Below, piece after piece: positions 43,800 through 47,954 of a stretch of 64,000 nucleotides of DNA; the stretch's first letter is position 1; each line of letters opens with the position of its first letter. The translations under genes and the position numbers were made by a program. The notes beneath the pieces are model-generated. The model saw only the letters and a program-made list of their open reading frames with translations. It was not told where the DNA came from and did no database searches. This stretch comes from Tepidanaerobacteraceae bacterium. Lineage in GTDB: Bacteria; Bacillota; Thermosediminibacteria; Thermosediminibacterales; Thermosediminibacteraceae. The stretch covers positions 1-64,000 of the forward strand of contig JASUSP010000001.1 in NCBI GenBank assembly GCA_030446005.1. Direction: 5' to 3'.

Positions 43800-45143
43800 T
43801 TACAATCTCAAAATTAGCCTAGCCGTGCTGAAATATACAAGAAGCCCTATTACATCGAGGAGCGTAGTCACGAAAGGCCCCGAAGTCACTGCAGGGTCGC
43901 GTCCGAGTTTATTCCACATCAAAGGTATGAAAGTGCCCAAAAAAGCCGCGATGGTGAGATTCAGAGCCATGGACAACCCGATTACCAGCCCCAAAGCGGG
44001 AGCACCCTGCCACAAATATGCTATGGCAGCCACAATCGCACCGTTAACCAGTCCCAATATTGCCCCCACGCCACTTTCCCTCAGTACATTTTTCCATATT
44101 AAAAGAGGCTCGATTTGTCCTGTGGCAAGACCTCTTACCACTATTGCTGCCGATTGGGTGCCCACGTTACCACCCATATCCATCAAGAGCGGAATGAAAA
44201 ACGACAATGCTACCACTGCCTGCAGTGTTTCTGAAAAATTTTTTATAACGTTTCCTGATACAATTTCCCCGAAAAGGGCGACCAATATCCATGGCAACCT
44301 CCTGCGTGCCCTAAAAAGTGGCGAACTTTTTTCCGGAGCTATTTCTTCCGATGCCCCCGCCATTTTGAGAATGTCCTCGGTAGCCTCTTCTTGGGCTGCA
44401 TCCATAACATCATCGAAAGTTACAATGCCTAAAAGAACGTTATTTTCATCCACCACCGGCAGGGCCAGAAACCCGTACTTCGCCATAAGTCTTATTACTT
44501 CTTCCTGGTCCTGAGTTGCAAAGACCTTTTTTACATCGGTATACATTATTTCCGAAAGAGGCGTATCTGGTTCGGAAAGCACTAGGTCCCTAAGTGAGAG
44601 GACTCCCAGTAATTTGCCGCCGTCATCCACGACGTAGACGTAATATATCATTTCAGCATCCGGAGCGATTTCTGCCAATTTGTCCAAGGCTTCCTTTGCC
44701 TTCATATCTTTCGGAAAAGCTATGAACTCGGTGGTCATTCTACCGCCGGCAGTGTTTTCATCGTATAAAAGCAGGGACCTTATCTCGTTTTGTTCCTGCT
44801 GGTGCATAATATGCAAGAATTTCTGGCGTGCGCTTTCGGGCAGCATCCCCAGATAATCGGCCACATCATCGGTCGACATCTCTTTCAGCAAAAGAGCAGC
44901 TTCTTCCGGTGCTATGTGAGTTAGAATGAAAGTTACTTTTTCGGGCTCTAGTTCTTCCAGTACATCCCTGGCGGTTCCGAATTCCAATTTTTTGAAAAGC
45001 TCAAGACATTCCTGGGACTCGAGGTCGGAAAATAGCTCGGCTATGTCGACGGGGTGGCTATCTTTTAAAATTTCCACTACTTTTATAAAATTGCCTTCTC
45101 TTAAAAGCTGTTTGATTTCGTTTGAATTCAAACTGGTGCCCAT
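43800..45143 (-). CDS. mgtE: Magnesium transporter MgtE, second copy
   Basis: This 447-residue MgtE has an N-terminal superhelical domain (about 1-125), a CBS pair (about 130-255) that closes the channel when Mg2+ is high, and a five-helix membrane domain from about 285. The signature segments PLLMDMGGNVGTQSA and TSGPFVTTLLDVIGLLVYF line the ion path. It follows a close paralogue by only two bases, so the two are coexpressed. They may form homodimers with different affinity, or a heterodimer; this is not known. Confidence 0.95.
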   Translation of the reverse strand: MGTSLNSNEIKQLLREGNFIKVVEILKDSHPVDIAELFSDLESQECLELFKKLEFGTARDVLEELEPEKVTFILTHIAPEEAALLLKEMSTDDVADYLGMLPESARQKFLHIMHQQEQNEIRSLLLYDENTAGGRMTTEFIAFPKDMKAKEALDKLAEIAPDAEMIYYVYVVDDGGKLLGVLSLRDLVLSEPDTPLSEIMYTDVKKVFATQDQEEVIRLMAKYGFLALPVVDENNVLLGIVTFDDVMDAAQEEATEDILKMAGASEEIAPEKSSPLFRARRRLPWILVALFGEIVSGNVIKNFSETLQAVVALSFFIPLLMDMGGNVGTQSAAIVVRGLATGQIEPLLIWKNVLRESGVGAILGLVNGAIVAAIAYLWQGAPALGLVIGLSMALNLTIAAFLGTFIPLMWNKLGRDPAVTSGPFVTTLLDVIGLLVYFSTARLILRL

Positions 45144-45145
45144 TG

Positions 45146-46519
45146 TTAAAACCTCCCGAATGCCACCGTTTTTTTAATCCCCAGGAACGTCACCGTAAGG
45201 GCGAAATAGATAAGTAATGCAGTAACATCGATAATGGTGGTGATAAACGGCCCTGAAGCCACGGCAGGGTCAACTTTTATTTTGTAAAAAATAAGCGGAA
45301 TCAACACACCTATAAATGCGGAAAACATTATTGCTATGCTCATAGAAGCACCAACAACCAAGCTAAGGTTAATATCTTTTTGCCATAAAGCTGCTACAGT
45401 AGCTATTATCGCTCCGCATGAAACTCCCACGAACACGCCGCCAAAGGTTTCGCCAACTAAAAATTTCATCACGTTTTTTATTGAAATCTCCCCTGTAGCA
45501 AGCCCCCTTACGGATAATGCCAGGGACTGGGTTCCTACGTTTCCGGCTGTAGCCATTAACACAGGAATAAAGAAAGCAACTGCCATCACCTTTTCAAGGA
45601 CTGTCGAATATCCATCTATAACGACCCCTGAGATTAAGTCCCCCAAAAGGCAGACCACCAGCCACGGGAGCCGCTTTTTTACAGCTCCTAAAATATTGGT
45701 GGTAAGGAGTATCTCGTCTTCAGGCGTTATTCCGGCAAGTTTATGGATATCTTCTGTGGTTTCTTCTTCAAGTACATCCATAGCGTCGTCTACCGTAACT
45801 ATTCCCAGGATGTGATTTTCTTCATCCACAACCGGTATAGCCAAAAGTGAATATTTAGAAATAAGCTGGGCAACCTTTTCCTGATCTTCGTCCACCCTGA
45901 CCGAGACCACTTTTTTATGCATAATTTCAGAAATCCTCTTATTTCTCGGAGCGGCTATGAGTTCCCTTAGGGACAAAACTCCAAGAAGGTGCTTTTCTTT
46001 ATCCACAACGTAAAGGTAGTATATGGTTTCAGCTTCTTTTCCAAACTTCCTTACATCTTCGATAGCTTCTTCCACTGTTTTGTCGGCGTATAGGTAAACA
46101 TAGTCGGTGGTCATTATGCCGCCGGCAGAATCTTGAGCTAGTTTTATGAGGGATTTTAACTCCTGTTGATGCTCCTGTGGCAATTTTGCCATCAATTTCT
46201 CAACTTTTTCATCGGGCAGTTTCTGGAGCAGGTCTATTATTTCGTCCACCGACATATTTTCTAAAATTTTCACGAGATGCATTTCGGGAATCGATTCAAT
46301 GTAAGGAATTCTCTCTTCGGGCTCGAGCTCTTCGAGCACTTCGGTGGCTTTTTCTAGGTCCATCAGTTCAAAAAAAACCTTTTTATTTTCGTCTTTTACT
46401 TCTTCCAAAATCTCCGCTATGTCTGCAGGATGCAATCTAGACAGTATTCTTTTTATTTCGTCGGTTTTTCTAGACAGGATTAACTGTTTTAAAAGAGCGA
46501 CCTCCCTTTCATTTTTCAT
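45146..46519 (-). CDS. mgtE: Magnesium transporter MgtE, first copy
   Basis: This 457-residue MgtE has the same layout: superhelical N-domain, CBS pair (YLYVVDKEKHLLGVLSLREL and SLLAIPVVDEENHILGIVT), and a membrane domain with VLMATAGNVGTQSLALSVRG and SGPFITTIIDVTALLIYF. Its ATG is six bases behind GGAGGG. A 185-base structured leader and a strong sigma-A promoter precede it. That leader is not an M-box as far as I can read, although magnesium control would be expected. Confidence 0.95.
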   Translation of the reverse strand: MKNEREVALLKQLILSRKTDEIKRILSRLHPADIAEILEEVKDENKKVFFELMDLEKATEVLEELEPEERIPYIESIPEMHLVKILENMSVDEIIDLLQKLPDEKVEKLMAKLPQEHQQELKSLIKLAQDSAGGIMTTDYVYLYADKTVEEAIEDVRKFGKEAETIYYLYVVDKEKHLLGVLSLRELIAAPRNKRISEIMHKKVVSVRVDEDQEKVAQLISKYSLLAIPVVDEENHILGIVTVDDAMDVLEEETTEDIHKLAGITPEDEILLTTNILGAVKKRLPWLVVCLLGDLISGVVIDGYSTVLEKVMAVAFFIPVLMATAGNVGTQSLALSVRGLATGEISIKNVMKFLVGETFGGVFVGVSCGAIIATVAALWQKDINLSLVVGASMSIAIMFSAFIGVLIPLIFYKIKVDPAVASGPFITTIIDVTALLIYFALTVTFLGIKKTVAFGRF

Positions 46520-46703
46520 CCGCTTCCCTCCCCGAAAAACTCGGGGCTACATCCTGCCGCCGGAGAGCGGCAAGATGGCCCCGGCAAATTTTAAATTGTT
46601 TCGCTTATTACTAGGATCGGCGTCCACCTTGCCGCTCCCCCCTTTTAATAAAAAATTCCCTTCCTAATGCGAAGGGTAAAAGTTCACACCGACTCGCATC
46701 CGC
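46520..46703 (-). ncRNA. Structured 5' leader of the mgtE operon, candidate riboswitch
   Basis: The leader has competing pairings. GAGCGGCAAG (46628-46637) can pair with CTTGCCGCTC (46565-46574), but the latter can instead pair with GCGGCAGGATG (46550-46563). A first hairpin, CCCTTC/GAAGGG (46658-46676), is followed by a T-rich tract (46647-46656), a terminator form; its 5' half can instead pair with sequence at 46600-46616. A last hairpin, CCCCG/CGGGG (46530-46546), abuts the ribosome site. The conserved M-box and yybP-ykoY sequences I know are not visible. Control by Mg2+ or another metal is inferred from the gene. Confidence 0.6.
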
Positions 46704-46746: not shown

Positions 46747-46778
46747 AAAAGAGAGGTTGAAAAACAACCTCTCTTTTT
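46747..46778 (-). terminator. Terminator of the glutamine-rich gene
   Basis: AAAAGAGAGGTTG and CAACCTCTCTTTT form a perfect 13-bp stem with a five-base loop; the stop codon of the gene lies at its right edge. The T tail on the minus strand is short. It insulates the mgtE promoter immediately downstream. Confidence 0.8.
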
Positions 46779-47250
46779 ACTGGAGCTGCTGGCTGATTTG
46801 CTGCTGCTGTTGCTGAATCTGTTGTAATTGCTGATTTAATTGTCCTAATTGCTGCTGGTTCTGCTGCCCAAAGGCTTGGTTTGGCTGAGCATTAAGCTGT
46901 TGATTCAACTGCTGGAGTTGCTTATTAAACTGGTCTAAAAGCTGGTTCATCTGGTAAAAGACCTGGTTTGCGTGAATGCTCTGCTGAGCCTGATTCAGGG
47001 CGTTTATCGCCTGCTGTATGGCCTGGCTAACCTGATTGTCGGTCTGCTGCTGCTGAGTTTGGGCCTGGTTTTTTAATTGATTGAGCAATTGCTGAAATTG
47101 ATTGGCTGTCTGCTGTCCGGCCAACTGTTGTTGCTGTTGCTGATACTGCTGGAACTGAGATTGCCTTACCCTTTCCGCTATCTCATTAGAAAATTCTACA
47201 TCTTTTTTCCTTTCTTGAATCGTCGCTTCCAGGTCCTTTTTTTCAGCCAT
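46777..47250 (-). CDS. Glutamine-rich low-complexity protein
   Basis: The 157 residues contain about 60 glutamines (38 per cent) and many asparagines. The first 30 residues are charged (KKDLEATIQERKKDVEFSNE); after that comes Q/N/L heptad-like sequence up to the C-terminus, e.g. NQLLDQFNKQLQQLNQQL. Glutamine codons are a mix of CAA and CAG, so the run is not a plain triplet repeat. Coiled-coil or prion-like assembly is plausible. The start follows GGGGG. A faint likeness of EFSNEIAERVRQSQ to gamma-type spore SASP (EFASET-AQQVRKQN) is noted. It lies 73 bp after the coiled-coil gene. Confidence 0.75.
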   Translation of the reverse strand: MAEKKDLEATIQERKKDVEFSNEIAERVRQSQFQQYQQQQQQLAGQQTANQFQQLLNQLKNQAQTQQQQTDNQVSQAIQQAINALNQAQQSIHANQVFYQMNQLLDQFNKQLQQLNQQLNAQPNQAFGQQNQQQLGQLNQQLQQIQQQQQQISQQLQ

Positions 47251-47323
47251 AATTATCCCCCTTTATTGTTTTTCTCTTTTTTAATATACCCGGGGGAATT
47301 TGATTTAAACAAAAAAAATATGG

Positions 47324-47902
47324 TTATTGCAGAATATTATCGAGCGAATTGCTGAACTGACTGAGAACCCGGTTTTTTATAACGTTTTCCTGGGCAGCGC
47401 TTAACGTCGATAGAACCTGCTGAATGGTCTGTTGAATCGACATTACGGGATTTACATACGCCTCTTGATGTGCACTGGATGATTGATAAAAGCCATTTTT
47501 TAGTTGATTTTCTATGTTTTTTAAATTAAGGACCAGTTCTTGGACTGAAGAATTAAAGTTTTCTACCCGCCTTTCAAAAGTACTTATAAACTGGTCAAAA
47601 GCGTTTTCTACTTCAGCAATTTTCTCCAGTATGTTTATTCTATGCTGCCCCGCCTGTTTTTGCAGCAACTTTGTGTTGGACCCGGCCAGCCACTTTGAAA
47701 GCAGGCTCTGGTTTTGTTCAAGACCCGTTTCCAGATCCTTAAGACTGGTTTCCACGTAACTTTTTACCTGTTTAAGACTATCCTGGATATTTTTTAAATT
47801 TCTAACATCATTTGTTAAGTTCGATTTAATCTGGTTGCTAAGAGATTCCAGTTTCTGATTGCTTTCTAAAAAAGCTTCAACCATTCCCTGGATTGAATTC
47901 AA
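47324..47902 (-). CDS. Coiled-coil protein paired with the glutamine-rich protein
   Basis: This 192-residue, almost wholly helical protein has long amphipathic heptads (LESLSNQIKSNLTNDVRNLKNIQDSLKQ) and is also rich in Gln, Asn and Ser. There is no signal peptide, membrane segment or cysteine. The TTG start follows AGGAGGTG at seven bases. That ribosome site lies in the 3' arm of a hairpin. The family is not recognised; general resemblance is to phasin-like or structural coiled coils. It appears to be the first gene of a two-gene unit with the glutamine-rich gene. Confidence 0.7.
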   Translation of the reverse strand: MNSIQGMVEAFLESNQKLESLSNQIKSNLTNDVRNLKNIQDSLKQVKSYVETSLKDLETGLEQNQSLLSKWLAGSNTKLLQKQAGQHRINILEKIAEVENAFDQFISTFERRVENFNSSVQELVLNLKNIENQLKNGFYQSSSAHQEAYVNPVMSIQQTIQQVLSTLSAAQENVIKNRVLSQFSNSLDNILQ

Positions 47903-47910
47903 AAAAATTC

Positions 47911-47954
47911 ACCTCCTGCACTCTATCAGTAAATATTTTTACCAGGCAGGAGGT
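47911..47954 (-). promoter_or_regulatory. Hairpin burying the ribosome site of the coiled-coil gene
   Basis: ACCTCCTGC (47946-47954 complement) and GCAGGAGGT (47911-47919 complement) form a perfect 9-bp stem with a 26-base loop. The 3' arm contains the Shine-Dalgarno AGGAGGT, and TTTTTTT follows three bases later, overlapping the TTG start. The element could be the terminator of the upstream deacetylase gene, a translational switch, or both. Confidence 0.65.

Follow-up and report, generated by a model that had tools for sequence, protein, structure and literature searches.

Which function maintains, side by side, a glutamine-rich protein (QR) and a coiled-coil partner encoded directly upstream (CC)? 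Both genes lie in the window, i.e., the 64,000-nucleotide stretch of DNA analyzed here. The first-pass annotation had described QR as a protein with 38% Gln and mixed codons that is kept by selection, and this description holds. Gln accounts for 60 of the 157 residues (38.2%), encoded by 42 CAG and 18 CAA codons; the longest Gln run comprises 6 residues and the longest single-codon run 4. With dN/dS values of 0.026 versus Thermovorax and 0.115 versus Fervidicola, QR is under strong purifying selection. An origin as a repeat-expansion artefact is ruled out by the mixed codons and the low dN/dS. The QR frame starts with ATG at 47250 behind the ribosome binding site AAAGGGGG and stops at 46777, while CC initiates at 47902 behind AGGAGGTG. 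In agreement with its earlier description as a Gln/Asn-rich coiled coil, CC contains 22 Gln and 22 Asn among its 192 residues (23%) and is helical and heptad-periodic, with a hydrophobic period of 3.50 residues (shuffle p = 0.001) and a dN/dS of 0.08-0.24. The heptad periodicity of QR is not significant (p = 0.15). The features of the locus are compiled in the table.

Features of the CC-QR locus (window coordinates)
Feature	Position	Strand	Remark
QR, glutamine-rich protein, conserved family	46777..47250	minus	157 aa, 38% Gln
QR conserved helical core, residues 51-115	46906..47100	minus	module common to CC and P3
GPR-type site EFSNEI in QR, residues 19-24	47179..47196	minus	resembles SASP cleavage site
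QR promoter, -10 element GGGTATATTAA	47281..47291	minus	SASP genes of the order: GGTTATATTAA
QR promoter, -35 element TGTTTA	47306..47311	minus	SASP spacing (14 bp)
CC, coiled-coil protein, upstream partner of QR	47324..47902	minus	192 aa, TTG start
CC C-terminal module, residues 151-192	47327..47452	minus	homologous to QR core
Top-conserved CC motif, residues 65-88, LLSKWLAGSNTKL	47639..47710	minus	predicted helical hairpin turn
CC promoter, -10-like element GGTAAAAATAT	47933..47943	minus	weak -35

The pair is retained in 13/13 near-complete, SpoIVA-carrying genomes of the order. The genus includes Thermovorax subterraneus and Fervidicola ferrireducens, and both cultured strains, DSM 21563 and Y170, respectively, harbor the pair. 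Nearly every genome of the order harbors one full-length CC match, and QR follows immediately downstream in every case read; a distant CC match occurs in another genome of the same class (G024). A wider profile search reveals adjacent CC-QR pairs in five families outside the order (f26, f84, f69, f71, and f10) and QR-like genes lacking a neighboring CC in two others (f98 and f8). The observation goes well beyond chance, since CC and QR stay adjacent and conserved throughout the order and also in families further away. Far from being isolated, unconserved genes, they form an old conserved unit that is found, as had been proposed for a search, in related spore formers. Many spore formers lack the CC/QR family (e.g., G022 and G023), and it is therefore accessory.

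The earlier statement that neither protein contains a known domain is borne out by scans of the curated Pfam and NCBIfam models, in which none reaches its cut-off for QR or CC; together with PDB searches, these returned generic coiled-coil or sub-threshold matches alone. DUF1542 yields E-values of 0.001-0.007 on three relatives, yet stays under its cut-off, and the only matches among solved structures are those of CC to chains of a generic helical or coiled-coil type. AlphaFold2 models, computed from shallow three-sequence alignments, consist of helices only and are of low confidence (pLDDT 54 and 60); at this low confidence, a turn is predicted at the conserved CC motif LAGSN. The predicted helical hairpin of CC and the Trp near its turn (KWLAGSN) recall WXG100/ESAT-6-like and other helical hairpin proteins. 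In contrast to WXG100 proteins, CC is about twice as long and carries W-x-x-G rather than W-x-G. WXG100 (PF06013) is the best Pfam match of CC, but at 19.6 bits versus a cut-off of 27.3 and unaligned at the turn, and no type VII secretion gene is seen near CC. No publication describing the family was found in the open-access literature, and the main text of the published Moorella thermoacetica spore proteome contains nothing usable.

QR and CC belong together with a third paralogue, P3, which is conserved in the order and lies at C79:3127-3588 in the same genome as the window. All three share a C-terminal helical module. In profile-profile comparison, the CC C-terminus aligns to the QR core with a score of 58.6, compared to a maximum of 13.3 among 40 column shuffles and to 14.1 on reversal, QR to P3 with 49.9 against 18.1, and CC to P3 with 34.5 against 16.8, so that the homology exceeds the column shuffles in 40/40 cases. 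Chance similarity among Gln-rich paralogues is ruled out by the shuffle and reversal controls; as shuffling preserves composition, common Gln-richness alone does not explain the match. The QR core is near-invariant across families (QQFQQLLNQLKxQAQxQQxQTDxQVxQAIQQAINALxQAQQSIQANQVFxQMxQLLDQ). P3 lies beside a gene for an FG-GAP-like repeat protein in some genomes of family f2 and in G024.

How is the pair linked to sporulation? All near-complete genomes of the order encode SpoIVA, alpha/beta-type SASPs, and GPR, except for G015, which is also the only near-complete one without QR, CC, and P3. At its syntenic site (murB-hydantoinase-HDAC-...-mgtE-mgtE), gene order is preserved but for the clean absence of CC and QR. 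Since G015 lacks SpoIVA, SASPs, and GPR while synteny is kept, it is probably asporogenous. Two further genomes without the pair (G001 and G021) have a completeness of 81% and 68%. The presence of CC and QR is thus tied to that of sporulation genes, and the co-loss represents a single event. As a natural knock-out, G015 (L093) is also useful for finding more sporulation genes of the order. Across the phylum, 33 of 399 sampled genomes carry QR (E<=1e-6), and 33/33 of these have SpoIVA compared to a background of 336/399 (hypergeometric p = 0.003; p = 0.04 for 18 genera), a statistic that ignores relatedness and treats counts as independent that are not. Additionally, in f26 and f84, a gerA-type germination-receptor operon and hsp20 adjoin the pair, their identities being read from the sequence. 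The co-loss, the SpoIVA co-occurrence, the gerA-type neighbors in two families, and the SASP-like promoters described below turn what had been a hint at spores into a strong, sequence-based link.

Alternatively, the pair could serve general stress or condensate formation, and its loss could happen to coincide with that of sporulation in one lineage. P3 adjoins a YflT-like stress-protein gene in the order, with rpoN beyond (L023, L107), hsp20 stands beside the pair in f26 and f84, and the loss is a single event. We regard this explanation as highly improbable in view of SpoIVA in every QR genome, the SASP-like promoters, and the gerA-type neighbors, all of which argue against it.

We derived a two-block sigma-G model solely from sequences upstream of the alpha/beta-type SASP genes in this order (effective n = 10). 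The QR site in the window reads TGTTTA-N14-GGGTATATTAA, compared to AGTATA-N14-GGTTATATTAA in the SASP genes. With the SASP-derived model, a score of 6.8 or more is reached upstream of 18/18 QR genes and p<0.05 upstream of 12/18, compared to 5/47 and 1/47 of the control genes, respectively; as the promoter sequences stem from relatives, these counts are not independent. The -10 element is of the type GGNNATRNTAA and lies 39-48 bp ahead of the start codon. The QR genes of f26 are preceded by a similar element of the CATAAAA...GGG type, which a relaxed pattern detects in 6/6 of them and in 4/36 controls. Upstream of CC, GGNNANANTNT occurs in 17/19 genes of the order (controls 3/47), with no good -35 element and no match to the SASP promoter model (median p = 0.34). 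In f26, all six CC genes display HATR-N15-GGNNANANT, as do 3/36 controls, all three of them the adjacent hsp20. As CC gains no support from the SASP model, its promoter assignment relies on the -10 motif together with the relatives in f26. The divergent orientation of hsp20 beside the pair (L097-L105; f26 and f84) is accompanied by a forespore-type promoter pattern in three f26 loci. The QR and CC elements fit the forespore sigma-F/G consensus. We thus classify the QR promoter as sigma-G-like and the CC -10 element as sigma-F/G-type, as judged from sequence. The gpr upstream regions were unusable for a sigma-F model, as gpr appears closely behind another gene.

This classification bears on the idea that CC and QR are mother-cell-made structural proteins of the coat, the cortex, or another spore layer, for which the sporulation link, the coiled-coil and Gln-rich composition, and the lack of a curated family, as for many coat proteins, could be invoked. 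The promoter elements of the pair match those of forespore SASP genes. The upstream regions of spoIVA, a sigma-E gene, carry TCATATATATA in the same genomes and, compared by eye only, look different. Further, a coat protein would have no use for a GPR-type site, and Pfam scans of QR, CC, and their relatives reveal no coat domain. Judged by promoter type, synthesis in the forespore is favored over a coat made by the mother cell, and because of this promoter class, we consider a coat origin very unlikely.

GPR cleaves SASPs at an 'EIA' site (PMC8452069), and the SASPs of the order, encoded at loci separate from QR and CC, carry K-x-E-[VIL]-A-x-E-[VLI]. In the QR family, 24/32 members display E[VIFL][AS]x[ED][LIVF] at one conserved place near the N-terminus, usually with Ser instead of the SASP Ala, and none of 69 control N-termini do. 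The EFSNEI of the window exceeds the 95th percentile of controls in its PWM score, yet its own shuffle p-value is 0.07. No such site is found in CC, and that of P3 is weak, with 6/12 scoring higher than 95% of the controls. From the motif, we infer that QR may be cleaved by GPR. QR further shares with alpha/beta-type (PF00269) and minor SASPs the K-x-E-[VI]-[AS]-x-E-[LIV] type of site, the promoter class, and the genomes, but has no homology beyond the short site and no SASP domain match; scans of QR and its relatives likewise yield no PF00269 match.

The faint likeness to gamma-type SASP that had been noted for the QR N-terminus survives as this GPR-type site at residues 19-24, but not as homology. 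SASP_gamma (PF04259) is absent from the listed matches of QR (E<=1) and of further relatives in the QR family (E<=0.1). Like SspE, QR is Gln-rich and a proposed amino-acid store; its candidate GPR-type site and its sigma-G-like promoter sequence also resemble those of SspE. Unlike gamma-type SASPs, it is a clostridial protein of 157 residues with a coiled-coil partner and a long conserved helical core, and it has no Pfam model match. In SspE, the cleavage sites lie within repeats, whereas QR has one N-terminal site. Despite these parallels to gamma-SASP in composition, promoter, and site, QR does not belong to that family, as it does not match the family model.

According to published surveys, clostridia lack gamma-type SASPs, which are the proposed amino-acid store in spores of Bacillus (PMC3533761, PMC8452069). 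QR could be a pure reservoir in their place, soluble, unstructured or weakly helical, and degraded on germination, with CC as a non-structural accessory. The Gln content, the pI of 5.7 with charge mostly limited to the N-terminus, the variable Gln-rich tails flanking the core, the GPR-type site, and the SASP-like promoter would all suit such a protein. However, the core is near-invariant and has homologous modules in CC and P3, both of which contain less Gln; this implies that it folds or engages in binding. As such invariance exceeds the needs of an amino-acid store, we consider a pure reservoir unlikely.

Most likely, CC and QR constitute a new kind of spore protein, as their sequences and neighborhoods suggest. 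It is rather probable that CC, QR, and P3 form a set of forespore-expressed helical spore proteins that work like gamma-SASP while being non-homologous to it, associate with each other, and are cut by GPR. CC and QR would be sporulation-specific and synthesized in the forespore, with QR as a spore-core protein whose charged N-terminal segment bears the SASP-type cleavage site. Via the helical module of the QR core that is common to CC and P3, the set may associate as helical bundles, and this assembly would be packed in the spore. On germination, cleavage of QR by GPR at the N-terminal site would dissolve the assembly and release a Gln/Glu-rich store. In this scheme, the pair would serve for storage or as a scaffold. 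More tentatively, the three paralogues may represent a clostridial spore-core system in which a co-assembled Gln-rich matrix is dismantled by GPR, as a counterpart of bacillar gamma-SASP. A conserved Gln-rich family that lacks curation and combines SASP-like promoters with sites of the GPR type would fill the clostridial gamma-SASP gap, and a structured QR core would suggest that spore-core proteins go beyond storing amino acids.

Next to the pair, the window contains tandem genes for mgtE magnesium transporters (43800-46519). In f2 genomes, an M-box riboswitch lies upstream of mgtE (L094:3349-3517, 146.9 bits); the corresponding leader in the window (~46610-46660, minus strand) has no Rfam match. 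It keeps a second conserved element, matched by no Rfam family, which reads roughly GGGG.GCGG.AAGGTGGAC.C.GATCCTAG and is seen in both families.
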